Source: a virus. From it: a stretch of DNA of 20,684 nucleotides. The DNA lies in IMG/VR virus record IMGVR_UViG_3300007735_000454, positions 1 to 20,684 of that record. One strand, given 5' to 3'. This document shows positions 1-11,017 of this stretch, piece after piece (the first letter of the stretch is position 1; the number at the start of each line of letters is the position of its first letter). The notes under the pieces were generated by a model. The model did not search any database and was not told where the DNA came from. It saw only the letters and a program-made list of their open reading frames with translations. A program made the translations under genes and the position numbers.

Positions 1-87
1 GAGACGGCCGCGAAGCGTTATTAGTTCGTTCCGATGCCGTTCGATTTGCTCGACCGTCAGCAGTATCATTTCTGTTTTATTAATCAT
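1..87 (-). CDS. Partial small ORF running off the window edge
   Basis: An ATG at 85-87 opens a frame that stays open for 29 codons to the window edge. The visible peptide begins MINKTEMILLTVEQIERHRN and looks helical and charged. I do not recognise it. There is no convincing Shine-Dalgarno sequence, and the ATG lies just after the terminator hairpin at 107-126, so it would need read-through or a promoter I cannot see. The sequence here is clearly more GC-rich than most of the window, as is the beginning of the neighbouring gene. Its reality depends on what follows outside the window. Confidence 0.4.
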   Translation of the reverse strand, partial: MINKTEMILLTVEQIERHRNELITLRGRL

Positions 88-106
88 GTTAATAAGATTT
101 TAATAA

Positions 107-126
107 TGGGGGAAATTAATCCCCCA
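107..126 (-). terminator. Probable intrinsic terminator after the basic 95-aa gene
   Basis: On the minus strand TGGGGG (126-121) pairs with CCCCCA (112-107) around an 8-base AT-only loop. An AT-rich tail with short T runs (TTATTAAAATCTTATT) follows. The stem is only 6 bp but nearly all G-C. It begins 5 bases after the TAA of the 95-aa gene, where a terminator for that one-gene unit is expected. The T tract is imperfect, so efficiency is uncertain. Confidence 0.6.
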
Positions 127-131
127 TATTA

Positions 132-419
132 TTAAGCCGCAATCAATTCGCCTTTTTCGTTCGGCTTCAAAACCTTTACAGCAGACGGCTTACGAATCGC
201 TTTCTTCACCGCAGCAGGACCCTGAAGTTTGGCCAGCTTGGCTTGAAGTTTCGCAATACGCTCCGCTTTACGGGCTTCGCGCTTTTCTTTCTTAGCTTTA
301 GCTTCAACAGCCTTTTGGTTTTTCAAAGCGGTCCGACGATTTACAATTTCAGCCTTGATAACTTTGACGAATTCACGCAGTTCCTTAATATTCATTTGCT
401 CAAGTGTTACGGTGGTCAT
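132..419 (-). CDS. Small highly basic Ala/Lys-rich protein, monocistronic
   Basis: A 95-aa protein. Residues 1-25 look like an amphipathic helix. Residues about 35-70 are a long run of A, K, R and E resembling a coiled coil or an H1-like nucleic-acid-binding tail. The C-terminal third is Lys/Pro-rich. A good ribosome site (AAGGA, 8 bases from the ATG) and a consensus promoter about 50 bases upstream support expression. A terminator follows directly, so the gene is its own transcription unit, unlike everything else here. The gene is more GC-rich than most neighbours. I do not recognise a family. A nucleic-acid-binding role is inference from composition only. Confidence 0.75.
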   Translation of the reverse strand: MTTVTLEQMNIKELREFVKVIKAEIVNRRTALKNQKAVEAKAKKEKREARKAERIAKLQAKLAKLQGPAAVKKAIRKPSAVKVLKPNEKGELIAA

Positions 420-472
420 AATATATTTCCTTTTTAATTAAAATTAAGAGTAAATTTCAAACTACAGGAGAC

Positions 473-520
473 ATTATACATTAATTATTGTATTTGTCAA
501 CCATTTTGTAAGTTATTGAT
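473..520 (-). promoter_or_regulatory. Early sigma70-type promoter P1 with shared upstream element
   Basis: On the minus strand: the shared 13-mer ATCAATAACTTAC (520-508), a 7-base gap, -35 TTGACA (500-495), a 16-bp spacer and -10 TATAAT (478-473). Both hexamers match consensus. Transcription should start near 466, giving a leader of about 47 bases before the ATG at 419. The 13-mer lies immediately downstream of the stop codon of the preceding gene (522-758). It recurs in the same position at two other promoters in this window. Confidence 0.88.
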
Positions 521-521
521 T

Positions 522-758
522 TTATTTACTTTTCAATCCTTTCCTTTTATTTTTATACCATTGATTGATAAATTTTTTCTTCCATTGAACAAATGTCATA
601 GAAAATACCAAATCAGGATTTTCCTTTTTTGCTTTTCTCCATGCATTATTCAATTTGGTAACGTTAAAATGAGATTTTTTTACTCCATGGGAAATATCGC
701 GTGAAATATCATTATCGCTATAAACTCCAGAACCTAATCCAAACTTTTGCTTTTTCAT
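522..758 (-). CDS. Hypothetical basic phage protein, 78 aa
   Basis: A 78-aa, Lys-rich soluble protein with a basic C-terminus (KNKRKGLKSK). The middle contains two Trp residues in helical context (NNAWRKAKKENPD, FVQWKKKF). I see no catalytic motif and do not recognise the family. Its ATG overlaps the stop of the phosphoesterase gene by 4 bases (ATGA), so translation is probably coupled. It is the last gene of the unit starting at promoter P2, and its stop abuts the conserved element of P1. Confidence 0.72.
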   Translation of the reverse strand: MKKQKFGLGSGVYSDNDISRDISHGVKKSHFNVTKLNNAWRKAKKENPDLVFSMTFVQWKKKFINQWYKNKRKGLKSK

Positions 759-1534
759 ATGTCAAGTGGTTTATATTTCATCGAATTTTCATATGGATAA
801 TATCCTCTAGGATTACAGATAACACGGCATTCCCCAATTTCATAATCAAATGGGTCATGGGTATGTCCGTGCGCCCAATACTTGATATTTGGATTATCAA
901 GAATAAATTCCGACAATTCACTATGAAAAGCACCATTTATCATTTTACCATTGTATTTCGCATGGCAGCTTTTAAACGATGGCGTATGATGCGTGATTAC
1001 AAAAATCTTTTTATCTTTATTTTGGTTCACAATCGTTTGAATGTAGTCCAAATCTTTTTTGTGCAATTCAACCGAATCCTCAGGCAGAAATCGTTTTTCA
1101 TTATACCGAATAATCGAAAAATCAGCCATATTTTGCTTCAGATTTTGTATTGTAAACCAATCGCCTTTATTACAATCAGTCCAAAGAGTAGCACCAACAA
1201 AAAGATAGTCACCATATTCAAAAGTATCACGATTTAAAACTTTTACATTTTTTGGCAATGTCTGCGGATAAATTTCAGTTATCGTTTCAATTTTGCCATT
1301 GTAAAATTCATGATTACCAAGAATATAAAGAACCTGTTTATATTTTGCAAGTTCGTTTTGAAAAAACTTTAGAAATCTATTTGTAGCTTCGCCTTCCAAT
1401 CGGGTCGAATGAAATTCACCAAGATACGTTCGGGCTTCAATCAAATCGCCCGCGATAATCAGCAAATCACCACCGGGCAATTTAAGGTCACCAAATTCAA
1501 GATGAAGGTCCGAAACTACTTGTATTTTATTCAT
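755..1534 (-). CDS. Calcineurin-like metallophosphoesterase
   Basis: A 259-aa protein with the full metallophosphoesterase motif set: D9-x-H11 (VSDLHLEF), GD at 29-30, GNHE at 73-76, a His pair in ITHH (182-183) and the terminal GHTH at 223-226 with an upstream AH. These residues bind two metal ions in the family, which hydrolyses phosphomonoesters or phosphodiesters. The substrate cannot be read from sequence. The C-terminal NPRGY motif also occurs in similar bacterial and phage proteins. Its start shares one base with the stop of the gene upstream (TAATG), so it is translated as part of the P2 unit. In an early-type region, a role in RNA, nucleotide or cyclic-nucleotide turnover is plausible inference. 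Confidence 0.93.
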   Translation of the reverse strand: MNKIQVVSDLHLEFGDLKLPGGDLLIIAGDLIEARTYLGEFHSTRLEGEATNRFLKFFQNELAKYKQVLYILGNHEFYNGKIETITEIYPQTLPKNVKVLNRDTFEYGDYLFVGATLWTDCNKGDWFTIQNLKQNMADFSIIRYNEKRFLPEDSVELHKKDLDYIQTIVNQNKDKKIFVITHHTPSFKSCHAKYNGKMINGAFHSELSEFILDNPNIKYWAHGHTHDPFDYEIGECRVICNPRGYYPYENSMKYKPLDI

Positions 1535-1938
1535 TATTCAATCGCATGTTCTTTAATAAATTTTACCATATACTCAGCATCGGAATCCCAATCAAAATTC
1601 CTAGATGCATTTTCTTCCGCTTCGGCTTGAGAATAACCACATTCAAGATATGTTTTACCAAAATCTTTCAACCGATTCTGATAATCTTCTGCTTTCAATT
1701 TACATGCATCACATGATTCTTGAAAATCATATGGGTGTTCGTCACATTCTCCATGATTATTATATCCAAATTCACGCTCAAATCCATCACAGTATGAACA
1801 TGAACCAAATGAACCCCATACCCAAAACGTTTCATTTTCATATTTTACTTTAGCCCACCAGTCACCTTGATAGGAACCAAATCGTTGAAATTCCAATACT
1901 TCAGCGCCAGCGGCTTCCAATGCCATTTTATAACTCAT
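1534..1938 (-). CDS. Cys-rich hypothetical phage protein
   Basis: A 134-aa soluble acidic protein. Residues about 14-45 are rich in aromatic residues (Gln/Trp/Phe/Gly). Then come Cys pairs (CSYC, CDAC) plus further Cys and His (GECDEHP), suggesting a zinc-stabilised domain. The C-terminal third is helical. I do not recognise a named family. It overlaps both neighbours: ATGA with the gene before it and TAATG with the phosphoesterase gene. A zinc-binding fold is inference from the Cys/His spacing. Confidence 0.75.
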   Translation of the reverse strand: MSYKMALEAAGAEVLEFQRFGSYQGDWWAKVKYENETFWVWGSFGSCSYCDGFEREFGYNNHGECDEHPYDFQESCDACKLKAEDYQNRLKDFGKTYLECGYSQAEAEENASRNFDWDSDAEYMVKFIKEHAIE

Positions 1939-2105
1939 TCATATTCTCCATAAAATTGGGAATCCAAATCATACGAATTCGCAGCATACATTTGCATATC
2001 ATATTCTGCAAACAATGTGTCCATAAATTGTTCGTATTGTTGTTCGGTCTCTACAAAAATTTCATCGACCGCGAGGTCATCAAGAATCTGATTTATTTTG
2101 TCCAT
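1935..2105 (-). CDS. Small acidic hypothetical protein, 56 aa
   Basis: I choose the ATG at 2105 (MDKINQILDD). It sits 2 bases after the stop of the preceding gene, with a GAG-type ribosome site in the overlap. An upstream ATG at 2153 would give 72 aa but overlap that gene by 44 bases. The product is very acidic and Tyr-rich (LFAEYDMQMYAANSYD), resembling the small acidic proteins common in phage early regions. Function unknown. The stop overlaps the next start (ATGA). Confidence 0.65.
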   Translation of the reverse strand: MDKINQILDDLAVDEIFVETEQQYEQFMDTLFAEYDMQMYAANSYDLDSQFYGEYE

Positions 2106-2109
2106 TATC

Positions 2110-2313
2110 TCACTCAATGTCGTTTTTGTCAAGAGCCCAGCCATCGACTTCAAGCCATGTTTCGGTATGATATGTTTTTGGTTCTCTATGATAAACTACC
2201 AATTTTTCATCAGATAGACCATAAGTATCGGAACAATCACTTACACTAAAACTGATACCCACATTGTATTTTTCCAACAGGGCTTTAAATTCTTTTAGAA
2301 ATTCTTGCTTCAT
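2110..2313 (-). CDS. Small hypothetical protein, first gene of unit P2
   Basis: I choose the ATG at 2313 (MKQEFLKEFK), preceded at 8 bases by GGAG. The longer reading from a TTG at 2352 would begin inside the promoter's -10 region and cannot be on that transcript. This leaves a 67-aa protein: an N-terminal helix, then a mixed segment with VVYHREPKTYHTETWLEVDGW. No recognised family. The leader is only about 23 bases. Confidence 0.7.
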   Translation of the reverse strand: MKQEFLKEFKALLEKYNVGISFSVSDCSDTYGLSDEKLVVYHREPKTYHTETWLEVDGWALDKNDIE

Positions 2314-2342
2314 CGAATTACTCCATTCATCATTATGGAACA

Positions 2343-2391
2343 ATTCTAACAAATAATAGCTTATTTGTCAATCAATTTGTAAGTTATTGAT
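2343..2391 (-). promoter_or_regulatory. Early sigma70-type promoter P2 with shared upstream element
   Basis: On the minus strand: 13-mer ATCAATAACTTAC (2391-2379), a 7-base gap, -35 TTGACA (2371-2366), a 17-bp spacer and -10 TAGAAT (2348-2343, one mismatch to consensus). The 13-mer overlaps the stop codon of the preceding gene (CAA TAA). It should drive the genes from 2313 down to 522. The identical layout at P1 and P3 argues against chance. Confidence 0.87.
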
Positions 2392-2626
2392 TTTGTTTAG
2401 GTTTTTCTGGGCGAACAAAATGAAATGCTTTATATGTAACATACAGAGGCCAAACCATACCGCTTAACATTCCAATCAGTATTCTATCTCCAGCAGTTAC
2501 ACGGACTTCCTGATAACCCATAAGATTACGAGTTTCTCCATCATAAAATTCAGCATTTGCGGCATAACCAAATGTCAAAACAGCCATAACAACATAAAAA
2601 ATAAAAATCTTATCAAAATTGTCCAT
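2384..2626 (-). CDS. Small inner-membrane protein, 80 aa
   Basis: I choose the second ATG, at 2626 (MDNFDKIFIF). It forms a TAATG overlap with the previous stop and has GGAG 8 bases upstream. The ATG at 2632 would be only 2 bases from that site. Two hydrophobic segments are visible, residues about 6-24 and 49-66 (LIGMLSGMVWPLYVTYKAF). They flank a polar loop with YDGETRNLMGYQEVRVTAGD. The C-terminus is charged. Probably a two-TM membrane protein. Family and role unknown. It is the last gene of the long P3 unit. Confidence 0.72.
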   Translation of the reverse strand: MDNFDKIFIFYVVMAVLTFGYAANAEFYDGETRNLMGYQEVRVTAGDRILIGMLSGMVWPLYVTYKAFHFVRPEKPKQNQ

Positions 2627-2973
2627 TACCATTTCTCCGCTTTGTCAAAATTCGTTAGAAAATCATCATAATCATGAATATCTGTTACTGTTGGTATTTC
2701 AATTGCATAATCTTCTGCATTTTGTTCTATCAAAGGTTTGTTATCTTGTTCTAATTTTTGATTTTTCTTGAAAGTTTTACCACGTAATTTTAAATGTGCA
2801 ATACCTTCGGGTGTATCATGATATTCGTTTGATACTTCGCGCATATTGTCACGCTGTCTTTGCGTTACACCACGTCCAGCATTACGACATGCACCAGAAC
2901 AATATGTCTTTTGATTGCGATGTTCTTTACCGCAAACGGGACATATTTTTTTACGATATACTGGACGGCCCAT
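2626..2973 (-). CDS. Zinc-finger-like hypothetical protein
   Basis: A 115-aa protein. The basic N-terminal third has a Cys4 pattern (CPVCGKEH then CSGAC), typical of a small zinc ribbon, followed by an Arg-rich stretch (RNAGRGVTQRQRDNMRE). The C-terminal half is acidic and probably disordered. The architecture suggests nucleic-acid or protein binding, but no enzymatic motif is visible. Its start lies inside the end of the upstream gene (23-base overlap), and no in-frame ATG follows soon. Confidence 0.72.
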   Translation of the reverse strand: MGRPVYRKKICPVCGKEHRNQKTYCSGACRNAGRGVTQRQRDNMREVSNEYHDTPEGIAHLKLRGKTFKKNQKLEQDNKPLIEQNAEDYAIEIPTVTDIHDYDDFLTNFDKAEKW

Positions 2974-3337
2974 CTTTTAATTTGTATCCTACAGATTCCA
3001 AACTCATGACGCAGGATATTAATTTTAAATTCTTGTTTTCTCTATTAATCAGACCATAATAATAATCATCAGAACCATGCACTAGACCAAAAAAGATATT
3101 CTCTTTACCATTTTCATCAATATAAATCTTATCTAAAAGATTCTCACATTCAGAAACAAGCAAACGCCAATTTCCTTTACAGATACATTCATCTTTTGGT
3201 TTTTCAATTCTCAAATCACAAGTGCAGGCATCATATTCCGGACAAGTTTCATCGATTGCCATAAAATCCCAATCGGGACAATAATGTTTCCACTCGCCTG
3301 TCAATTTATCGAATCGTTCTTTTTCAATATCTTTCAT
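2951..3337 (-). CDS. Cys-rich hypothetical phage protein, 128 aa
   Basis: A 128-aa soluble protein. Residues about 19-60 hold six Cys in an irregular pattern (HYCPDWD, CPEYDACTCD, CICKGNW), suggesting a metal-binding N-terminal domain. A later segment (FFGLVHGSDDYYYGLI) resembles a beta hairpin seen in other phage unknowns. No function recognised. The start overlaps the previous stop by ATGA and the end overlaps the next gene. Confidence 0.72.
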   Translation of the reverse strand: MKDIEKERFDKLTGEWKHYCPDWDFMAIDETCPEYDACTCDLRIEKPKDECICKGNWRLLVSECENLLDKIYIDENGKENIFFGLVHGSDDYYYGLINRENKNLKLISCVMSLESVGYKLKDGPSSIS

Positions 3338-3651
3338 TTTGAAATTTTTTCATGGTAATTTAAAATCTTCTGGGCCATAGAATAAACCCAAGGCTGACGA
3401 TGTGGCAAATGTGAACCAGTAGCACCAGTCCAATCACGAAATTCATAATCAAAAAAATCAATATTGCAATCTTTAGGATTTTTTGATTGCAATTGTTCTA
3501 ATTCATCTGCCCATTTTTGCCAGGTATCATCGCTAATAATTGTGGCATCCATTTCATAATAAAGGCACGAATGGACCAACATCTGGGCCCTACGCCGACG
3601 AATCAATTCTTGGCGTTTGGTCAGTTTTTTCTTTTCAATCTTTTTTTTCAT
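3334..3651 (-). CDS. LigA-related (DNA ligase Ia-domain-like) small protein
   Basis: A 105-aa protein. A basic N-terminus (KKLTKRQELIRRRRAQ) leads into HSCLYYEMDATIISDDTW and then KWADELEQLQSKNP. This resembles the N-terminal Ia region of NAD-dependent DNA ligase (LigA), where a YY...D..ISDxEYD helix pair contacts NMN. Here it stands alone, with no adenylation domain and no catalytic Lys motif. Phages carry such stand-alone LigA-related proteins. Their role is not established to my knowledge. The match is by eye and moderate. No ligase activity should be assumed. Confidence 0.68.
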   Translation of the reverse strand: MKKKIEKKKLTKRQELIRRRRAQMLVHSCLYYEMDATIISDDTWQKWADELEQLQSKNPKDCNIDFFDYEFRDWTGATGSHLPHRQPWVYSMAQKILNYHEKISK

Positions 3652-3659
3652 TGATATTG

Positions 3660-3899
3660 TTAGTGCAAAATCGAAGTATTTGAATTAAATTCAGGTGTTC
3701 TATTCAATATGTGTTTTAGTAATTGATTAAAAGATTCGGTGCATTCCATATAATCATTTACAACAACCAATCTCGACAAAACAATAGCAGTCAATTCGGT
3801 GACCTTAAAATGTTCATTGTTTATGGCCAAATTTGCAATGAATTCATCTGTTTCTTCAATCACTTTGCTAAACTTTTCCATATCAATTTCATTTTCCAT
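3660..3899 (-). CDS. Small helical hypothetical protein, 79 aa
   Basis: A 79-aa, mostly helical acidic protein with no Cys pairs, signal peptide or TM segment (KVIEETDEFIANLAINNEHF, then VLSRLVVVNDYM). A GAGAG ribosome site precedes the ATG. It overlaps the upstream gene by 11 bases and is 8 bases from the next. Family not recognised. Confidence 0.65.
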   Translation of the reverse strand: MENEIDMEKFSKVIEETDEFIANLAINNEHFKVTELTAIVLSRLVVVNDYMECTESFNQLLKHILNRTPEFNSNTSILH

Positions 3900-4089
3900 T
3901 TTTTTCTCTCAATAGATTTAATTCGATTTCAAGTTTTCTTGCAAATTTACTAGACACAAAACCCTCTCTATCTTTTCCGGGTCTTTGTGTTCGTAGATAA
4001 TCCGTTGACACGCGAGGAACTTCATAGTAAAAGAATCGTTCCTCTTTATCGGTCAATGGTGTGTTACTTTTCTGTGGTTTCTCCGCCAT
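3889..4089 (-). CDS. Small basic hypothetical protein, 66 aa
   Basis: A 66-aa charged protein. Residues 12-40 contain LTDKEERFFYYEVPRVSTDY and then RTQRPGKDREGF. The C-terminus is a Lys/Glu-rich helix. No known motif. The start lies within the end of the upstream gene (26-base overlap), which is common here and suggests coupled translation. Confidence 0.62.
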   Translation of the reverse strand: MAEKPQKSNTPLTDKEERFFYYEVPRVSTDYLRTQRPGKDREGFVSSKFARKLEIELNLLREKNGK

Positions 4090-4345
4090 TTGTTTCTTCT
4101 TTTGCTTTTACTTTTCCGCTAGAACCACCAGAATTAGCTTGAGCAGGTTTATGTCCAATTTGCCAGATAGCAGCGATTTCTTCACTACCCAATTCGAGTG
4201 GACGTTTCACAGGGTCAGCAGTTTCATATTCAATCCTGCGCCCTTCTTTTTTAAAATCATAAACATCAAAATCGTGAGTATAACCTGACTTATAAACAAT
4301 TCTTACAGTAAAAATATCACGTTTAATTTGTGTGTTTTGTGCCAT
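4064..4345 (-). CDS. Hypothetical protein with disordered tail, 93 aa
   Basis: A 93-aa protein. Residues 8-60 look beta-rich (FTVRIVYKSGYTHDFDVYDF), ending in ELGSEEIAAIWQIGHKP. This resembles small phage domains of unknown function. The last 25 residues are a Gly/Ser/Lys/Glu/Thr tail, probably disordered. A clear AAGGA site lies about 8 bases upstream of the ATG. I cannot name the family. Confidence 0.7.
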   Translation of the reverse strand: MAQNTQIKRDIFTVRIVYKSGYTHDFDVYDFKKEGRRIEYETADPVKRPLELGSEEIAAIWQIGHKPAQANSGGSSGKVKAKEETNGGETTEK

Positions 4346-4360
4346 TTTATATTTCCTTAA

Positions 4361-4741
4361 TTATGAAAATTCAGTCGTTGTAAAAGAATAGCCATCTTCA
4401 TCATCCCAATCTCTATCTGGATTAAAATATGGTCGAGGTGCTTTTTTGCCCTCACTATTATGTAGTAGATTTTTATGTCCATTTTCATTCACATAATTTG
4501 GACTTTTATATGTTTCAACCATATGAACAAATGCATCATAGTCCATAGGCTGACCATATTCATCCATGATAATTTCATTTTTGAGAAATTCTTTCCATGC
4601 TTTCCATGAAGTTAGTTTTGCCCACGGATAACCTTGAAATGAAAATGCCCATCCACCCGATGATTTGCCAATATGATATTCAGTATCATATCTATTGCAG
4701 CATTCACATAGATTTTTTGCAACGTAATAATTAGTTCCCAT
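4361..4741 (-). CDS. MGTNYY-family conserved phage protein
   Basis: A 126-aa protein beginning MGTNYYVAKNLCECCNRYD, with HIGKSSGGWAFSFQGYPW after it. I recognise this as a widespread phage and bacterial family of unknown function: an N-terminal MGTNYY, a Cys cluster that may bind zinc, then the HIGK(S)SxGWxF motif. The C-terminus is acidic and ends SFTTTEFS. It starts by TAATG overlap with the gene upstream. No activity can be assigned. Confidence 0.8.
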   Translation of the reverse strand: MGTNYYVAKNLCECCNRYDTEYHIGKSSGGWAFSFQGYPWAKLTSWKAWKEFLKNEIIMDEYGQPMDYDAFVHMVETYKSPNYVNENGHKNLLHNSEGKKAPRPYFNPDRDWDDEDGYSFTTTEFS

Positions 4742-5028
4742 TATTTAATTCCGAAATGTTCTTTCAATTCAAATACAGCATCTTCTTTTAGACGATATGC
4801 AGCAAACAATGCGGCATAGGCGTTGTTTTCTTGACCTGGCGCCGGGTTGCGACTAAACTGTTCCCAGTCATTACCTTGCTTGATTAACTGTTCACAACAT
4901 TCATGCACAATCAACTCGGCAAATTTTTCTATGTCAAAATGATATACATCACCACGCGACCTAGGTTGAATGACACCATGTTCTACCGTCGTGCATTGTT
5001 CAACCAAATTTTTGATTTTTTCGTTCAT
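4741..5028 (-). CDS. FAELIV-type phage protein, tandem paralog A
   Basis: A 95-aa protein with an N-terminal helix (MNEKIKNLVEQ), a core motif EKFAELIVHECCEQL and the C-terminal signature ELKEHFGIK. The same signature ends the next gene upstream (5028-5258), and the gene junctions are nearly identical, so the two look like a tandem duplication. The family is common in large phages and has no known function. Between core and tail is a 30-residue insert (SRNPAPGQENNAYAALF) missing in the partner. Confidence 0.78.
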   Translation of the reverse strand: MNEKIKNLVEQCTTVEHGVIQPRSRGDVYHFDIEKFAELIVHECCEQLIKQGNDWEQFSRNPAPGQENNAYAALFAAYRLKEDAVFELKEHFGIK

Positions 5029-5258
5029 TATTTAATCCCGAAATGTTCTTTTATATACCATCCAACACTAACATCAGATTCATATTCATTATATCCTTGT
5101 TCTTTCAATTCAGCAATTTTAACACAATCATGAACAATCAATTCAGTAAATTTTATAAAATCATCTTCAAGAAAAACATATTGCTTGCGACCTGTCATCA
5201 TTTTATTAATAACAAGACCATCGGATTGTTTGAGTAATTCTTCAATTCGTTTGTTCAT
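5028..5258 (-). CDS. FAELIV-type phage protein, tandem paralog B
   Basis: A 76-aa protein sharing with its neighbour the start MNxxIxxLxxQ, the core IKFTELIVHDC and the last eight residues KEHFGIK preceded by a Tyr/Trp segment. It lacks the central insert of paralog A. It starts by ATGA overlap and ends by TAATG overlap. Function unknown. Divergence outside the shared blocks is large, so the duplication is old or the copies evolve fast. Confidence 0.76.
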   Translation of the reverse strand: MNKRIEELLKQSDGLVINKMMTGRKQYVFLEDDFIKFTELIVHDCVKIAELKEQGYNEYESDVSVGWYIKEHFGIK

Positions 5259-5596
5259 TTAAATTTATCCAAAATAGTCTCAATGGGAACAATTTCCATT
5301 TTAACATCATGACCATTTTGTTTATATGCTTCACTGTATTGTTGAAAAATACCATGGGTCATCATGTTAGTCCGTTCAGTATCTTTATGGCAAACATAAG
5401 TGCTACCAGAATATCCATCAACATAATAGAAATTATCATCTTGTGAGATTTCGGTAATACCACTATTCAGTTTCCATGAATCGGCACCATTATATCCACC
5501 AAACCAACCAGCGAGAACCTTATACAATTCACCGTCGGGCACTTTATTACCCGAAAACTTCACAATAACCCAAACATCAGGTGTATATACACTCAT
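5255..5596 (-). CDS. Conserved phage protein with GWFGGY...SWKLNSGI motif
   Basis: A 113-aa soluble protein. An N-terminal beta-rich part (VWVIVKFSG, ELYKVLAGWFGGYNGADSW) is followed by KLNSGITEIS and YVDGYSGSTYVCHKD. This VLAGWxGGYxxxDSWxxNSGI pattern recurs in phages and is familiar to me as an unassigned family. No catalytic residues stand out. ATGA overlaps on both sides place it firmly within the P3 unit. Confidence 0.75.
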   Translation of the reverse strand: MSVYTPDVWVIVKFSGNKVPDGELYKVLAGWFGGYNGADSWKLNSGITEISQDDNFYYVDGYSGSTYVCHKDTERTNMMTHGIFQQYSEAYKQNGHDVKMEIVPIETILDKFK

Positions 5597-5823
5597 TCTA
5601 TTTCCTCTACCATAAATTCACAACCACAGGGGCAATCCAACAATTCGTCCAATGTTGAATTCTCGTTCAATGGCAAATCATAACCATATTGATTCAAATC
5701 AGTTTCATCACCTTCAAGACACAATGAACAAACGTGCGAATATAATTCATTTCGCACATCAATTTCCGTATCAAATTGTTTTTCCCAACCGGGCGATGAT
5801 AGTTTAATTAGTGTATATTTCAT
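5593..5823 (-). CDS. Small Cys-containing phage protein with CPCGCE motif
   Basis: I start at the ATG at 5823 (MKYTLIKLSS), which forms the usual ATGA overlap. The longer form from a TTG at 5835 is unnecessary. The 76-aa acidic product has LYSHVCSLCLEGDETD in the middle and ends LLDCPCGCEFMVEEIE. Two Cys pairs about 35 residues apart suggest a single zinc site. Phage proteins with this HxC...CGCE layout are common and uncharacterised. Confidence 0.72.
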   Translation of the reverse strand: MKYTLIKLSSPGWEKQFDTEIDVRNELYSHVCSLCLEGDETDLNQYGYDLPLNENSTLDELLDCPCGCEFMVEEIE

Positions 5824-6146
5824 TTTAATCCACAAGCCTTTAAATCAATTTCATCACTTAAAATAGGATACCAATATCTTTTATTACTTAATGAGGGTAT
5901 TTTTGAGAATCTTGGAATAATTGAATTATCAACATGACTATCATCAAATTCAAATTCTGGTGCCATCCATTTCTCAAATTCTCTTATTGTTCTATTTCCG
6001 TTTTGTTGCTTTAGTTTAACATTTGTGAAATGATAATATGCATTCTTAGGAACATAATAGAAAAACAACAGATATGCTCCACATGTATCCTTTTCTATTC
6101 TGTCATGTTGAAGTTTAAATGCATTTTTTAAATCATCTTGTGTCAC
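5820..6146 (-). CDS. Hypothetical protein with GTG start, 108 aa
   Basis: A 108-aa protein. The start codon is GTG at 6146, overlapping the previous stop as GTGA, which fits the 4-base overlaps on both sides. The N-terminal half has AYLLFFYYVPKNAYYHF, a hydrophobic beta-like stretch rather than a clear TM helix. The C-terminal half has EFEKWMAPEFEFDDSHVDNS and RYWYPILSDEIDL. I do not recognise it. Confidence 0.68.
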   Translation of the reverse strand: MTQDDLKNAFKLQHDRIEKDTCGAYLLFFYYVPKNAYYHFTNVKLKQQNGNRTIREFEKWMAPEFEFDDSHVDNSIIPRFSKIPSLSNKRYWYPILSDEIDLKACGLK

Positions 6147-6373
6147 TTAGGTTCCCACAGTTTACCTTTTGCACCACAAGGAGCAAAGAATGAAATTTTC
6201 TGACGTTCCTCACGACAATTTGAGCCATATGGCATTCCTTCATTGTTGTTAGCCAATGCCCAAGAATCGCTTGCAACAACCTTTGGATGGAAACAGCGAT
6301 TGTTCCATTCAGAACCCTTTTCCGGTTTAGAATGTTTACAGTCCATACATAGTGCTGGAAATGGTTTTTTCAT
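6143..6373 (-). CDS. Cys-rich zinc-binding-like phage protein
   Basis: A 76-aa protein. CMDCKHS at residues 9-15, then CFHP, a Cys in SNCREERQ, CG at 67-68 and a terminal GKLWEPK. The spacing of at least five Cys plus His is typical of a small phage family with zinc-ribbon character found in many enterobacterial and aquatic phages. Function unknown. ATGA coupling on the upstream side, GTGA on the downstream side. Confidence 0.75.
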   Translation of the reverse strand: MKKPFPALCMDCKHSKPEKGSEWNNRCFHPKVVASDSWALANNNEGMPYGSNCREERQKISFFAPCGAKGKLWEPK

Positions 6374-6786
6374 TTCGTCATCTCGTCAAAAACTGATTGA
6401 GCCTCTGCTGCAAGGCGTTTCAGAGCAACAGCATCACTTCCGTAATCGCAAGGCTGTTTGCCAAGAATACCGACCCTCAACGCCGCCAGCGCCTCGGCCA
6501 GCTTGCGCTCGGCGGACTCGGTGCGATGGTTCTCCGCAGCGCCGCGTTCAAAGTGTTTCGCGCATAACTGTGTCAGCCTTTCTACCTCCGCTTGCAATTC
6601 AGAAATTCTACATTTTTGCAAATGATACCCATCAACATGACCGCAAGCCGTGCATACTTCGCGCGTTTCAGGCTTCGGCATCTGCGCGGGGGCGGTCATG
6701 GGGAACCCACAGCAGTTTTCGTTGACTGCCAGTCCGCTGCCGTCGCAGCACTTGTCTTTTTTGGCGTCCATCATTCCCCTTCTCAT
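6370..6786 (-). CDS. GC-rich, probably recently acquired coiled-coil protein
   Basis: A 138-aa protein. A Cys-rich N-terminal part (CCDGSG, CCG, CTACGHVDGYHLQKC) is followed by a coiled coil (ISELQAEVERLTQLC onward) and an Ala/Leu/Arg-rich helix. It resembles siphophage hypothetical proteins from GC-rich hosts. The base composition (runs such as CGCCGCCAGCGCCTCGG on the plus strand) is unlike every neighbour, while the ends match the operon exactly with ATGA overlaps. The start at 6786 fits the overlap. Internal ATGs at 6774 and 6771, next to a GAAGGGG stretch, are alternatives. Function unknown. Confidence 0.72.
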   Translation of the reverse strand: MRRGMMDAKKDKCCDGSGLAVNENCCGFPMTAPAQMPKPETREVCTACGHVDGYHLQKCRISELQAEVERLTQLCAKHFERGAAENHRTESAERKLAEALAALRVGILGKQPCDYGSDAVALKRLAAEAQSVFDEMTK

Positions 6787-7004
6787 TTAATTTCCACAAT
6801 TCGTCCAGCAACATTCCAAATCATATCTTCCAAAAGTTTGTTGACAATTTCTTTTTTGCCCAAACAAATGGCATCAGCAATATTATTTACTTGTTCGATT
6901 ATATCATCGGAAGTAGCAATATTTAAATTACGGCGTTCAATTTCTTCAATCAAATCTTCATCATCAATGTCATACATATCAACTTCTACTGTAACAAATG
7001 CCAT
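6783..7004 (-). CDS. Small acidic conserved phage protein, first gene of unit P3
   Basis: A 73-aa acidic protein starting MAFVTVEVDMYDIDDEDLIE and continuing EIERRNLNI. The TVEVD + D/E-rich + LIEELERR pattern is familiar from many phages and uncharacterised. A GGAG site lies 7 bases before the ATG, and the leader from P3 is only about 20 bases. It heads the longest unit in the window, 16 genes down to 2384. Confidence 0.76.
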   Translation of the reverse strand: MAFVTVEVDMYDIDDEDLIEEIERRNLNIATSDDIIEQVNNIADAICLGKKEIVNKLLEDMIWNVAGRIVEIK

Positions 7005-7030
7005 AATAAATCTCCTGTCAGTTTATAATA

Positions 7031-7080
7031 ATTATATCACGGTAATGCTATATTGTCAAGCAATTTCGTAAGTTATTGAT
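7031..7080 (-). promoter_or_regulatory. Early sigma70-type promoter P3 with shared upstream element
   Basis: On the minus strand: 13-mer ATCAATAACTTAC (7080-7068), an 8-base gap, -35 TTGACA (7059-7054), a 17-bp spacer and -10 TATAAT (7036-7031). Hexamers and spacing are all consensus, predicting a very strong promoter. It reads into 16 co-directional genes. The 13-mer starts just after the stop codon of the preceding gene, as at P1 and P2. Confidence 0.92.
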
Positions 7081-7082
7081 TT

Positions 7083-7316
7083 TTATAGAAAAGGTAAATC
7101 TTCTGAGGCATCCTGAAGCAATACAAAATTAATGAATTGGACAGCACCATCTTCATTATCAAAATAACGAATTATTGTCTGACCTGTCATCATTGAGAGT
7201 ATGACAAGTAACACATGGTCATCATATGTTGAAAATTTTATAACCCAATTATTTTTTAATACTGGATTAAATGATTTTAATTTCAAAAAAGTTTTGTTCT
7301 TTTGGGAATTCTTCAT
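7083..7316 (-). CDS. Conserved small phage protein, 77 aa
   Basis: A 77-aa protein. A Lys-rich N-terminus leads to NNWVIKFSTYDDHVLLVILS, then TGQTIIRYFDNEDGAVQFIN. This core reads as a small alpha/beta domain that I recall from T4-like marine phages, with no assigned function. The ribosome site is weak. It follows the 63-aa gene by 33 bases and ends next to P3's conserved element. Confidence 0.72.
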   Translation of the reverse strand: MKNSQKNKTFLKLKSFNPVLKNNWVIKFSTYDDHVLLVILSMMTGQTIIRYFDNEDGAVQFINFVLLQDASEDLPFL

Positions 7317-7322
7317 ATTGTT

Positions 7323-7330
7323 TATTTATG
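7323..7330 (-). promoter_or_regulatory. CATAAATA late-promoter-like box (weak)
   Basis: Minus-strand CATAAATA matches 7 of 8 bases of the T4 late -10 box (TATAAATA). It lies only 7 bases upstream of the ATG at 7316, so transcription would begin almost at the start codon. In an AT-rich genome this could be chance. I list it because the same octamer occurs at two other gene-leading positions. Confidence 0.25.
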
Positions 7331-7349
7331 AAAAATTCCCATCGGAACA

Positions 7350-7541
7350 TTACTTGACTTTTACAGTCACAGTCTTATAAACATCATCAAAGAATTTTAC
7401 AACAGATTTTGCAAATGCAGTTTCAGCGGCAATATAACTGTCCACTGACTTTAATACTGCTTCATTGGTAATAAATGTTTTTGCAAATTTGGATTTTGCA
7501 GTTCCAACACTGTCAATCATCGTTTCGGTAATAGTTTCCAT
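7350..7541 (-). CDS. Small helical protein, 63 aa
   Basis: A 63-aa protein, mostly helical and poor in aromatic residues (METITETMIDSVGTAKSKF, then SYIAAETAFAKSVVKFFDDV). Short helical proteins of this style occur in marine T4-like phages. Function unknown. A TAGGAGATATT sequence puts the stop codon of the 33-aa ORF inside this gene's ribosome site, so the two genes are tightly coupled. Confidence 0.72.
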   Translation of the reverse strand: METITETMIDSVGTAKSKFAKTFITNEAVLKSVDSYIAAETAFAKSVVKFFDDVYKTVTVKVK

Positions 7542-7549
7542 AATATCTC

Positions 7550-7651
7550 CTATTTCACAATAAAAGTTTTGTTACGTGTAGCAGAATACATACGACGGGC
7601 TTCCTGTATTGCAGAGATTACTTTCTTTACAAATTTTAACGTGCGTTCCAT
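7550..7651 (-). CDS. 33-aa basic peptide, first gene of unit P4
   Basis: Small ORF starting MERTLKFVKKVISAIQEARR and ending KTFIVK. It is a basic amphipathic helix followed by a short tail. A GGAGAG ribosome site lies 6 bases before the ATG and a consensus-spaced promoter directly upstream. Its TAG stop is part of the next gene's ribosome site. These signals make it credible despite its size. Function unknown. Confidence 0.7.
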   Translation of the reverse strand: MERTLKFVKKVISAIQEARRMYSATRNKTFIVK

Positions 7652-7664
7652 TTTGGCTCTCCTT

Positions 7665-7688
7665 GTGTGATACACTATTATATCACAC
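7665..7688. repeat. 8-bp inverted repeat over the P4 -10 box
   Basis: GTGTGATA (7665-7672) and TATCACAC (7681-7688) are perfect inverted copies separated by 8 bases. The -10 box of promoter P4 (7677-7682) and the expected start site fall between or inside the arms. This is a typical operator geometry. It could also form a hairpin at the very 5' end of the transcript. The arms are too far apart for a standard CRP site. Confidence 0.65.
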
Positions 7689-7705
7689 TTTTATTTATGT
7701 TGCAA
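7677..7705 (-). promoter_or_regulatory. Promoter P4 with embedded late-like box
   Basis: On the minus strand: -35 TTGCAA (7705-7700), a 17-bp spacer and -10 TATAAT (7682-7677). It drives the 33-aa, 63-aa and 77-aa genes. It lacks the 13-mer shared by P1-P3. A CATAAATA octamer (7699-7692), resembling a T4 late box, lies within the spacer, so the site may serve in two phases. The inverted repeat at 7665-7688 overlaps its -10. Confidence 0.75.
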
Positions 7706-7709
7706 TGCA

Positions 7710-8105
7710 TCAGAATTTCAGATGATTTTTTCTTATTTTGCAACTGACCCATTCGTTATAGAATAAATCGCTTCGGAGAGCGTGATAGGTAAATATATAA
7801 TAACTTTCCCAATATGAACATTCACCTCGGGATATACACAATTTTATTATTTCTTTTTTATATTTCTCGGTGCCGTTCTTTTCAATTTCTTCCAATAAAG
7901 TTTTATTTGAACCCCAATAAGATTCCCAATCGCTTGTCTTGCGAATCTTTTTTCTTTTACCCTTTATTTGTTTTGTTCCTGCTTTGGTAAAGAATTTTTT
8001 ACCGATATACTTTTTATTTGTTTCAAGATTTGTAATGATATAAACAAATCCGTAATTATTTTCAATCTGTTCAGATGTAAATTCTTTATCATTATATAAC
8101 CACAT
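7710..8105 (-). CDS. GIY-YIG / Seg-like putative endonuclease
   Basis: I start at the ATG at 8105 (MWLYNDKEFT), which has GGAG 6 bases upstream. The ATG at 8117 is inside the terminator tail. The 131-aa protein has NYGFVYIITNLETNKKYIGK, a GIY-YIG-like signature at residues 18-35, and a KTSDWESYWGSNK segment. It also has ECSYWESYYIF (95-105, with candidate catalytic Glu) and an Asn near 117. This resembles the Seg-like or uncharacterised GIY-YIG proteins of T4-like phages. No separate DNA-binding domain is visible. Homing activity is inference. It stands alone between a terminator and P4. Confidence 0.8.
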   Translation of the reverse strand: MWLYNDKEFTSEQIENNYGFVYIITNLETNKKYIGKKFFTKAGTKQIKGKRKKIRKTSDWESYWGSNKTLLEEIEKNGTEKYKKEIIKLCISRGECSYWESYYIFTYHALRSDLFYNEWVSCKIRKNHLKF

Positions 8106-8169: not shown

Positions 8170-8886
8170 TTAGAATGCTTTTGCTACAGATAGAACGACA
8201 GCATTTTTATATAGATGCTGACCATCGACTGTATTTGCTGCTACTACACCAGAACCCATTGCTTTATTGGTATAATAGTGTGCACCCAAATCCCAACCTT
8301 TCAAGCTGTATGTTGCACCAAGTTTATAGTCCGTGTAATTTAATGCATCATGACTATTTACTTTTGTGCGACCTACATGACCGTTCAAGGTAACATTTGC
8401 AATACCAGGAACTGGAACATTTGCATCAGCTTGGAAATATTGCGAACCAACACTGTTTGCAACACCAAAGTAATCACTGATTGAACGTGTATATTTTACG
8501 CCAATAGGACCAGCAGTCAAACCAGCATACAATTCATTTGTATCATATTTCTTGTTTGTTGCTGTTGCTGCACGTTGATAGAAATAATTATAGCTTCCGA
8601 CATCAACTGTTACACCCTTAACAACTTCAAGTTTATAACCACCATAGATGTCACTTTCTAGACCAGAACCATTGGTATAAAGTTCGGTGCTGACAGAACT
8701 GTTCCAATTTCCAACATAAAATCCTTTCATGCCATATTCAACACCACCCTGAATTGCACGTGAATTTTGTGTTTGGCTCATACCACGAAAACGATAATCT
8801 GAAACCATTCCTGCATTTCCAGAAAGACCATCAGCCAATACCGAAGTAGATACCAACATCAATAACATAAGTAAAGTTTTCTTCAT
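8170..8886 (-). CDS. TorF / Gcw_chp-type outer-membrane porin
   Basis: I start at the ATG at 8886, which has a good GGAG site and begins a classical signal peptide (MKKTLLMLLMLVSTSVLA, cut before DG). The longer frame to 9006 lies in nrdB. The mature protein of about 220 aa opens GLSGNAGMVSDYRFRGMSQT, the hallmark start of the TIGR02001/Gcw_chp family of putative porins. It continues as alternating beta strands (YVGNWNSSV, YDTNELYAGL, YKLGATYSL) and ends in Phe, as outer-membrane barrels do. It is the last gene of the nrdA-pstS-nrdB unit. A phage-borne porin could change outer-membrane permeability or receptor display. Which one is unknown. Confidence 0.88.
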   Translation of the reverse strand: MKKTLLMLLMLVSTSVLADGLSGNAGMVSDYRFRGMSQTQNSRAIQGGVEYGMKGFYVGNWNSSVSTELYTNGSGLESDIYGGYKLEVVKGVTVDVGSYNYFYQRAATATNKKYDTNELYAGLTAGPIGVKYTRSISDYFGVANSVGSQYFQADANVPVPGIANVTLNGHVGRTKVNSHDALNYTDYKLGATYSLKGWDLGAHYYTNKAMGSGVVAANTVDGQHLYKNAVVLSVAKAF

Positions 8887-8905
8887 ATTTTCTCCTATAA
8901 AAGTT

Positions 8906-9895
8906 TTAAGCCGCTTCGCTCCAAACATCTTCCCAACTACCTGAAAGTGCGCCCTTGGCATAGTCAGTGGCACGATTTTCAAAAAAGTTGGTATGTGTCG
9001 GTGCATTTATCATTTCTTCAACCCAAGGCAGCGGGTTCTTCTTCGCTTTGAAGATTCCCTTGAGTCCTAGACCAATCAACCTCCTATCTGTAATGTAACG
9101 AATATAATTCTTTACATCAATCGCGGTAAGATTTTCCATCTCACCCATAGTAAAGGCTAAGTCAATAAATTTATCTTCTAATTCAACCATGCGTGTTGCT
9201 ATAGTATATATCTCACCTTTTAATTCATCATTCCATATTTCTTTGTTCTCCTCTATGTAAGTCCTAAACATCTTAGTCATACCTTCACAATGCATCGTTT
9301 CATCAACAATTGACCAGGTAACAATCTGACCCATACCCTTCATTTTACCATGTCTTGGGAAATTAAGCAACATGATAAATGAAGAAAATAGCTGCATTCC
9401 TTCTGTAAGTGCCGAAAATACTGCGATATGTTTTGCTGTATTTTGTTTATTACTATTTTGTTGTGATATATTCAAAACATAATCATGTTTTTCTTTCATT
9501 TCATTATATTGCATAAATTCATTATACATCGAATCAGGCATACCCAAAGTTTCAATCAAATGTGAATATGCAGCAATATGTAATGCTTCACGTGCTGCAA
9601 AACCCATAAGCATCATTCTTATCTCAGGCTGAGGGAAATAAGGCAAATAATTATGAACATAACCACCAGCGACATCAATATCTCCTTGGGTAAAGAATCG
9701 GAAGATTTGTGTGAGGAAGTATTTTTCTTTTTCATTTAATTTTTGTTTCCAATCTTTAACATCTTCAATCATCGGAACTTCTGTATGCATCCAGTGGGAC
9801 TGTTCATGTTTTAACCATGCTTCATATGCCCAAGGATATGAAAATGGTTTATAATGTGTTCTTTCTTCTGTTAAATTAATTTTTTTTCTGGTCAT
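8906..9895 (-). CDS. nrdB: Class I ribonucleotide reductase beta subunit
   Basis: A 329-aa small subunit that makes the tyrosyl radical needed by NrdA to reduce ribonucleotides to deoxyribonucleotides. All ligands of the di-iron site are visible: D72 (GDIDVAGG), E103 and H106 (REALH), E165 (EGMQLF), and E199 and H202 (DETMH). Y110 is at the position of the radical Tyr (E. coli Y122). The length is typical of short phage and bacterial R2 proteins. Its start overlaps the 47-aa ORF by ATGA, and it is separated from nrdA by pstS. The ribosome site is weak, so it probably relies on coupling. Confidence 0.97.
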   Translation of the reverse strand: MTRKKINLTEERTHYKPFSYPWAYEAWLKHEQSHWMHTEVPMIEDVKDWKQKLNEKEKYFLTQIFRFFTQGDIDVAGGYVHNYLPYFPQPEIRMMLMGFAAREALHIAAYSHLIETLGMPDSMYNEFMQYNEMKEKHDYVLNISQQNSNKQNTAKHIAVFSALTEGMQLFSSFIMLLNFPRHGKMKGMGQIVTWSIVDETMHCEGMTKMFRTYIEENKEIWNDELKGEIYTIATRMVELEDKFIDLAFTMGEMENLTAIDVKNYIRYITDRRLIGLGLKGIFKAKKNPLPWVEEMINAPTHTNFFENRATDYAKGALSGSWEDVWSEAA

Positions 9896-10035
9896 TTATC
9901 GTCTTTCTTTTTTTGATTTTTTGCTTCCATTTCTCTCAAGTCCATAGCTGCATCCGCTACTCCATGCCAATCTTCATGAAGTATTTTCATCTGAAGATAT
10001 TCAAGCATTATTCTTTTTTGTTCTTTATAGTCCAT
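9892..10035 (-). CDS. 47-aa conserved phage peptide upstream of nrdB
   Basis: Small ORF starting MDYKEQKRIMLEYLQMKILH, then EDWHGVADAAMDLREMEAK and a Lys-rich end. The EDWHGVxDAAxDLRE pattern is familiar from other phages and has no known function. GGAG lies 6 bases before the ATG. It overlaps pstS by 11 bases and nrdB by 4, filling what would otherwise be a gap. Predicted all-helical. Confidence 0.82.
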   Translation of the reverse strand: MDYKEQKRIMLEYLQMKILHEDWHGVADAAMDLREMEAKNQKKKDDK

Positions 10036-11017
10036 ATTTTCTCCATTCAGACATTATTTTGTTTTTAATTTTATCTGGCATAGGGACATAATCCAAATCT
10101 AATGCTGTTTTATCACCATTTTGATATGCCCATGAAAAAAACTTGAGAACTTCAGTAATATTTTTCTTTTCTGTTTTAGTGTTTAGTAATATAAACGTTG
10201 CACCTGTAATTGGCCAACTATCTTTACCTGGTTGGTCAACAAGTAGTAAATAATAACCTGGTGCTTTATCCCATTGTGCATTTGCTGCTGCTGCTGAAAA
10301 TGTTTTATCATCAGGTGCTACAAAATTACCATCTTTATTCTTTAGTAGAATATATGTCATTTTGTTTTGAAGCGCATAAGCATATTCAACATAACCTATC
10401 GAACCATTAATCTTTTGAACATATGCCGAAACACCTTCATTTCCTTTTCCTGAAATTCCTGTTGACCATTTCACGGAGGTTGCAGCACCAATCTTCTCTT
10501 TCCATTCATCATTTACTTTTGAAAGATAACTTGTAAAAATAAATGATGTTCCGGAACCGTCAGACCTTGTTACTACAGTAATATTTTCATCAGGTAATTT
10601 CACATTTTTATTAATTTCAGCAATTTCAGGCGCATTCCATTTTGTTATTTTACCTAAAAATATGTCAGCTAAAATTTTATTTGTAAATTTAATATCACCA
10701 GATTTAAATTGCTTCAGATTAAAAACAGGAACTACTCCACCCATTACGATTGGAAATTGAATTAAACCTTCCTTTTCTAATTGTGTTAATTCAAGTGGGG
10801 CATCACTTCCACCAAAATCAACTGTTCTTGCAATAATTTGTTTTATGCCACCACCAGAACCTATTGATTGATAGTTTATCATAATACCAGTTTTATTTTT
10901 ATATTCATCTGACCATTTTGAATATAATGGATATGGAAATGTAGCACCTGCACCATTTATCTGAGCATAAGAATTATTTACAAGAAACATCATTAAAATT
11001 AAAATAAGTTTTTTCAT
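10025..11017 (-). CDS. pstS: Periplasmic phosphate-binding protein PstS
   Basis: A 330-aa protein with an 18-residue signal peptide (cut after NNSYA). It closely resembles E. coli PstS along its whole length. Phosphate contacts are preserved: T26-F27 (GAGATFPYPLY), S54 (SIGSGGG), D72 (GGSDAPL), R151 and S155-G156-T157 (RSDGSGTSF). It binds phosphate in the periplasm for delivery to the host PstCAB transporter. No pstC, pstA, pstB or phoU gene is present in the window. It sits 3 bases after nrdA, whose end supplies GAGGGG as its ribosome site, so it is co-expressed with nucleotide synthesis. Phage pstS is a known auxiliary metabolic gene. Confidence 0.97.
   Translation of the reverse strand: MKKLILILMMFLVNNSYAQINGAGATFPYPLYSKWSDEYKNKTGIMINYQSIGSGGGIKQIIARTVDFGGSDAPLELTQLEKEGLIQFPIVMGGVVPVFNLKQFKSGDIKFTNKILADIFLGKITKWNAPEIAEINKNVKLPDENITVVTRSDGSGTSFIFTSYLSKVNDEWKEKIGAATSVKWSTGISGKGNEGVSAYVQKINGSIGYVEYAYALQNKMTYILLKNKDGNFVAPDDKTFSAAAANAQWDKAPGYYLLLVDQPGKDSWPITGATFILLNTKTEKKNITEVLKFFSWAYQNGDKTALDLDYVPMPDKIKNKIMSEWRKYGL

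Follow-up and report, generated by a model that had tools for sequence, protein, structure and literature searches.

The window, meaning the whole stretch of DNA analysed here, is a virus fragment of 20,684 bp from IMG/VR. It contains genes for ribonucleotide reductase, thymidylate synthase, primase, endolysin, and a PstS-like protein. According to the list of open reading frames (ORFs), positions 1-8000 hold numerous small genes of no assigned function, almost all of them on the minus strand. A 13-mer, ATCAATAACTTAC, occurs as exact copies at 508-520, 2379-2391, and 7068-7080, with no further mismatch-free copy in the window. The preliminary description of this DNA had reported these copies in front of three early promoters, and its observation holds apart from the strand, which is minus for all three elements. 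The word common to the three copies extends to 16 bp, AAAATCAATAACTTAC, within which lies the sequence AATCAATAACTTA, treated below as the core of the element.

Three modules on the minus strand

The arrangement around each element is nearly the same. Between the 13-mer and TTGACA there are 7, 7, and 8 bp in modules 1, 2, and 3, and spacers of 16, 17, and 17 bp lead from TTGACA to TATAAT, TAGAAT, and TATAAT, respectively, as had been described. The reported closeness to the stop codon of the preceding gene was also confirmed, with the element starting 1 bp past the stop in module 1, overlapping it in module 2, and starting 2 bp past it in module 3. All features listed in the following paragraph are on the minus strand.

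Module 1 follows a gene at 522-758, whose TAA stop occupies 524-522. Its core is located at 509-521, inside the 16-mer at 508-523, and is bordered by an A-rich flank at 522-537. The sigma70 promoter at 473-500 (TTGACA at 500-495, TATAAT at 478-473) agrees with the consensus at 12/12 positions. The first gene downstream in the ORF list, at 132-419, encodes 95 aa, and its product gives a weak match to DUF1192, below the cut-off. In module 2, the TAA stop of the preceding gene (2384-2632) falls within the element, the core is found at 2380-2392 inside the 16-mer at 2379-2394, and the promoter at 2343-2371 carries a TG before the -10 box and scores 11/12. The downstream gene, at 2110-2313, starts with the ATG at 2313 and encodes 67 aa; the TTG start listed for it at 2352 was rejected as implausible, as it adjoins the -10 box. 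Module 3 is preceded by a gene at 7083-7316 (TAA stop at 7085-7083) and consists of a core at 7069-7081, inside the 16-mer at 7068-7083, and a promoter at 7031-7059, again with a TG before the -10 box and a score of 12/12. The gene downstream, at 6783-7004, encodes 73 aa. No terminator-like hairpin was found at any of the three window modules.

The three-copy repeat by itself is just moderately unusual, because about 4% of first-order Markov simulations (11/300) also produced a 13-mer with three same-strand copies. Only the exact copies stand out, since matches with up to three mismatches number 16 in the window, close to the 14.6 expected. The three promoters that bear the element are the top three listed sigma70-like matches on the minus strand of the window (12/12, 12/12, and 11/12), and two other window sites also score 11/12. 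That the three copies fall exactly on the best promoters is far beyond what chance would give for the repeat alone.

Identity of the element as an IHF-type site

In all three promoters, AATCAATAACTTA within the 16-mer is a perfect match to the consensus of the integration host factor (IHF) written as WATCAANNNNTTR. The published IHF consensus is WATCARNNNNTTR, and the strongest sites carry an A-tract on the left (PMC8421141). The four N positions of this consensus are identical across the three window copies, for which recent duplication could be a source. Phage lambda (97,004 positions) and the window were scanned with a matrix constructed from 56 de-duplicated phage modules. In lambda, positions 27618, 27696, and 86 ranked third, fourth, and sixth of the 97,004 positions. 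The first two we take to be the attP IHF sites H1 and H2, and position 86 is presumably I1 of cosB; the attP core is at 27724-27738 in the lambda record. Lambda H' was absent from the matrix's top 15 lambda matches. In the window, the same matrix placed core 2 first (23.7), core 1 second (22.8), and core 3 third (20.7), with the next best position at 13.4. The left flank of the modules shows A/T enrichment at -14 to -10, moderate after de-duplication, and the window flanks are A-rich. By agreement with the consensus and by the independent ranking of the lambda sites, the motif is, as a sequence, an IHF-type site.

No member of the IHF/HU family (PF00216) is encoded in 22 module-bearing or related phage records, some of which are possibly fragments, and this implies that IHF is supplied by the host. 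The host probably possesses IHF, as suggested by the TTGACA/TATAAT promoters and by NrdA relatives in phages of Proteobacteria.

Distribution of the module among viruses

A search of IMG/VR for the exact 13-mer ahead of TTGACA returned 22 contigs, and the 13-mer read backwards returned 0. With the more general pattern AATCAANNNNTTR, 7-10 bp, TTGACA, 16-18 bp, TATAAT, the combination of IHF core and promoter was found in at least 119 IMG/VR stretches, against 14 in all when the letters of the core were scrambled (AACTAA). In the aligned modules the consensus is retained by construction, and the free positions alone are informative. Among the matches listed, the bases at the four N positions differ, R being favoured at the second and third; the commonest gap is 8 bp, and these modules have an A/T-rich left flank. 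A search that allowed any gap from 2 to 32 bp showed a preference for distances of 4-6, 8-9, and 16-17 bp (chi-square 100, df 30, over 83 de-duplicated modules), and the distribution may comprise two classes. Helical phasing was considered and rejected: the gaps are strongly non-uniform but show no clean 10.5-bp period, the best being about 12.5 bp. Phages whose DNA shows no detectable similarity to the window also carry the IHF core, and in some relatives the core is reversed. Some contigs of the 16-bp gap class combine a hairpin with the IHF core and the promoter.

Repetition within a genome is common. In 30 records searched whole, modules recur two to five times in many contigs, nearly always on the same strand, and the reversed-pattern control gave zero matches in 30/30 records. 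Modules were present in 23/30, which is no frequency, since most of these records were chosen for holding one. The copies in one genome keep the core and have different bases at the N positions. Where a genome has several modules, the genes that come first after each of them are mutually unrelated; between genomes, some of these first genes are orthologous.

The closest case to the window is contig L030, from a Flavobacteriaceae bin, which is 90% identical to window positions 1-526. Over 420-523, covering leader, promoter, and element, it shows about one mismatch in ~104 bp. The adjoining first part of the gene behind this module has diverged, and the encoded protein is 77% identical to the product of 132-419. 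A second module in L030 carries a different NNNN (GACC). Flavobacteriaceae use another type of promoter; on this ground the group was rejected as the host of L030, and the contig was probably mis-binned.

The word and the module also have clear limits. As to whether the word is frequent inside genes, 30/124 copies (24%) of the 16-mer, with A or G allowed at one place, lie in ORFs of at least 80 aa, compared with an ORF coverage of 85%, so that the 16-mer is mainly intergenic. A promoter scoring at least 10/12 within 40 bp downstream accompanies 11/119 copies (~10%), and 12/119 have one on the other side, facing away, compared with 2 in the control interval. Consequently, the word alone is no mark of an early promoter, which agrees with the other tasks that IHF sites are expected to have, and IHF-like sites serve more than promoters. 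An exact IHF core at 7-9 bp was found at 0/132 promoters in an unbiased sample of strong viral promoters, and among relatives of nrdA (80 loci, 1.17 Mb) the exact core, in either orientation, accompanied 4/35 consensus promoters. The module is therefore confined to a subset of phages and is not a feature of phages at large. BLAST comparison of the window modules with named phages gave no convincing relative. Searches with the module consensus detected IHF-like cores in named phages; among those inspected, the promoter part was present only in the Felix-like phages Moogle and mistaenkt. In phage mistaenkt, whose listed host is MG1655, the best-scoring IHF site of the first 48 kb lies 21 bp before a sigma70-like promoter.

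Proposed function, alternatives, and significance

It is likely that each element is a binding site for host IHF just upstream of a near-consensus sigma70 phage promoter. IHF would bind there, would activate rather than repress, and the units would be expressed early in infection. IHF would be oriented with its A/T-rich left arm pointing away from the promoter and the ATCAA....TTR half facing it, and would introduce a bend of about 160 degrees. The placing of this bend relative to the 13-mer core is modelled on the geometry of lambda H'. With the core ending 8-9 bp before the -35 box, this geometry would put the bend centre near -57 and leave the -35 box free. The bend would fold the upstream DNA onto RNA polymerase and its alpha C-terminal domains, thereby raising initiation. 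IHF may additionally protect AT-rich phage DNA against silencing. As several separate units share this module, a single host protein would adjust them in concert. Of the two options in the preliminary description, a UP-like element or a regulator site governing units together, the regulator half is well supported, given the IHF match and the several modules per contig, and a classical UP element is not.

IHF could also bind chiefly to repress, to shield the unit from transcription reading through from the gene before it, or for a purpose in replication or packaging. The many 16-mer copies without a promoter nearby fit such a role, as does the location of the core in a terminator-hairpin loop ahead of the promoter in some phages (L293, L343). 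It is nevertheless unlikely, as in the window and in more than 100 other stretches the core is placed at preferred distances from near-perfect promoters and the -35 box is left free.

It is improbable that the element is a classical UP element, contacted by the alpha C-terminal domains of RNA polymerase themselves with no other protein involved. The position of the element, -43 to -56, and its A/T-richness suit the UP region, and the promoters are otherwise near consensus. However, UP elements are A/T runs with no fixed C and no fixed TTR 4 bp further on. The scrambled core of equal composition is not enriched, which indicates that the order of letters matters and not the composition, and copies in one genome retain the core and vary at the middle bases. 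In the gap classes of 16-17 and 20-21 bp the same core falls outside the UP window, and reversal of the core in some relatives also speaks against a UP element. On the grounds of letter order and the several gap classes, it was rejected as the sole explanation.

The probability that the element binds a phage-encoded regulator that switches several units together is similarly low. Such a regulator would account for identical copies in one genome, on the same strand and each ahead of a separate unit, but the same core recurs in phages that share no detectable DNA similarity with the window, and lambda sites with a known host binding protein are picked up by the matrix. The lack of an IHF/HU-family protein in the 22 phage records counts against it as well, and no regulator was identified in the window, where several small genes have no assignment. 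It is very improbable that the copies arose by duplication of a promoter cassette and stay similar through recombination, the word itself being functionless: the window copies do share their N positions and part of the gap, and the nearly identical L030 module does lie beside diverged coding sequence, but independent phages hold the consensus at preferred gaps despite diverged spacers and downstream genes, and scrambling abolishes the enrichment.

The preferred reading, host IHF at sigma70 promoters, has precedents, as IHF at phage early promoters is an already known kind of arrangement, represented by lambda pL and Mu Pe. The title of Giladi et al. 1992, cited in PMC8942017, states that stimulation of lambda pL by host IHF needs the C-terminus of the RNA polymerase alpha subunit. 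The likeness is that of a phage's strong early sigma70 promoter working with host IHF, the window modules combining a sigma70 promoter and an IHF-type site by sequence only. In lambda pL the IHF site is further upstream and serves a single promoter, whereas the core in the window ends 8-9 bp before the -35 box and several units each have a copy of the module in front. For Mu Pe, transcription is described as reduced when the IHF site is deleted (PMC3820752). There too, an IHF site affects a phage early promoter. Mu Pe is one promoter in an operator/enhancer region with a repressor, and, in contrast to the window, no repeated module of fixed spacing is present.

Two further systems resemble the module in part. 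UP elements of strong bacterial promoters and of T4 early promoters are likewise A/T-rich, located upstream of the -35 box, and expected to boost initiation, but they lack the invariant ATCAA....TTR and act by direct contact with the alpha C-terminal domain. The PeSL cassettes of T4-type phages, which consist of an early promoter and a stem-loop, are likewise short units carrying a promoter, set between small early genes that share a strand; their defining stem-loop is missing from the window modules, and we know of no IHF core as a PeSL component. The repeated module with set spacings in many environmental phages appears to be a new variation, and no account of phage-wide IHF promoter modules was found in the open-access library searched.

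More tentatively, a large set of environmental phages could use a repeated IHF-promoter module with few spacings to place early units under one host architectural protein. It is possible, though somewhat doubtful, that this amounts to an IHF regulon across phages, responsive to host physiology and acting against the silencing of AT-rich phage DNA. In any case, an anonymous repeated word in viral dark matter gains a concrete, testable reading. It provides a search rule for promoters of uncultured phages: an IHF core, then 4-6, 8-9, or 16-17 bp, then TTGACA-17-TATAAT. The module points to IHF-bearing hosts, and with phage mistaenkt the reading is open to test in ordinary E. coli K-12. Phages seemingly take host IHF as a common input to several transcription units.

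Hairpin cassettes in other records

In two other sequence records, L293 and L343, a perfect 11-bp terminator-like hairpin carries the predicted IHF core in its loop. A T run follows the stem, a consensus promoter lies immediately downstream, and 16 bp separate the core from TTGACA. Judged from sequence, this cassette would unite a terminator, an IHF site and a promoter, an arrangement reminiscent of the PeSL elements of T4-type phages.

Single, tandem and facing IHF-like words

In Escherichia phage mistaenkt, the top-scoring predicted IHF site in the first 48 kb searched (L579:2041, minus strand) lies 21 bp upstream of TTGACA-17-TAGATT, in a small-gene region. Citrobacter phage Moogle likewise has an IHF-like site before a promoter. 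For work on the mistaenkt site, E. coli K-12 can serve.

Within the window, a weaker IHF-like site, AATCAATGGTATA (566, minus strand; score 13.4), falls inside the gene preceding module 1, 45 bp upstream of core 1. Four records (L521, L561, L536 and L514) carry IHF-like words in tandem, AAAATCAATAACTTAC ... AAAATCAACAACTTAC, with a few tens of bp between them. Others, including L465, L477, L483 and L526, contain inverted repeats of two facing words about 10-25 bp apart, located in intergenic phage DNA without a promoter; these pairs are possibly paired IHF sites or some other element.

Relatives and host-like genes

The contig L030 (RFXU01000123.1), assigned to a Flavobacteriaceae genome bin, is closely related to the window phage (90% over 526 bp), and its placement in that bin is probably an error of binning. 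Because the window encodes host-like PstS-like phosphate-binding (10025-11017; PHROG 5385) and secreted/outer-membrane-like (8170-9006) proteins, both on the minus strand, its gene content suggests auxiliary functions when phosphate is limiting.
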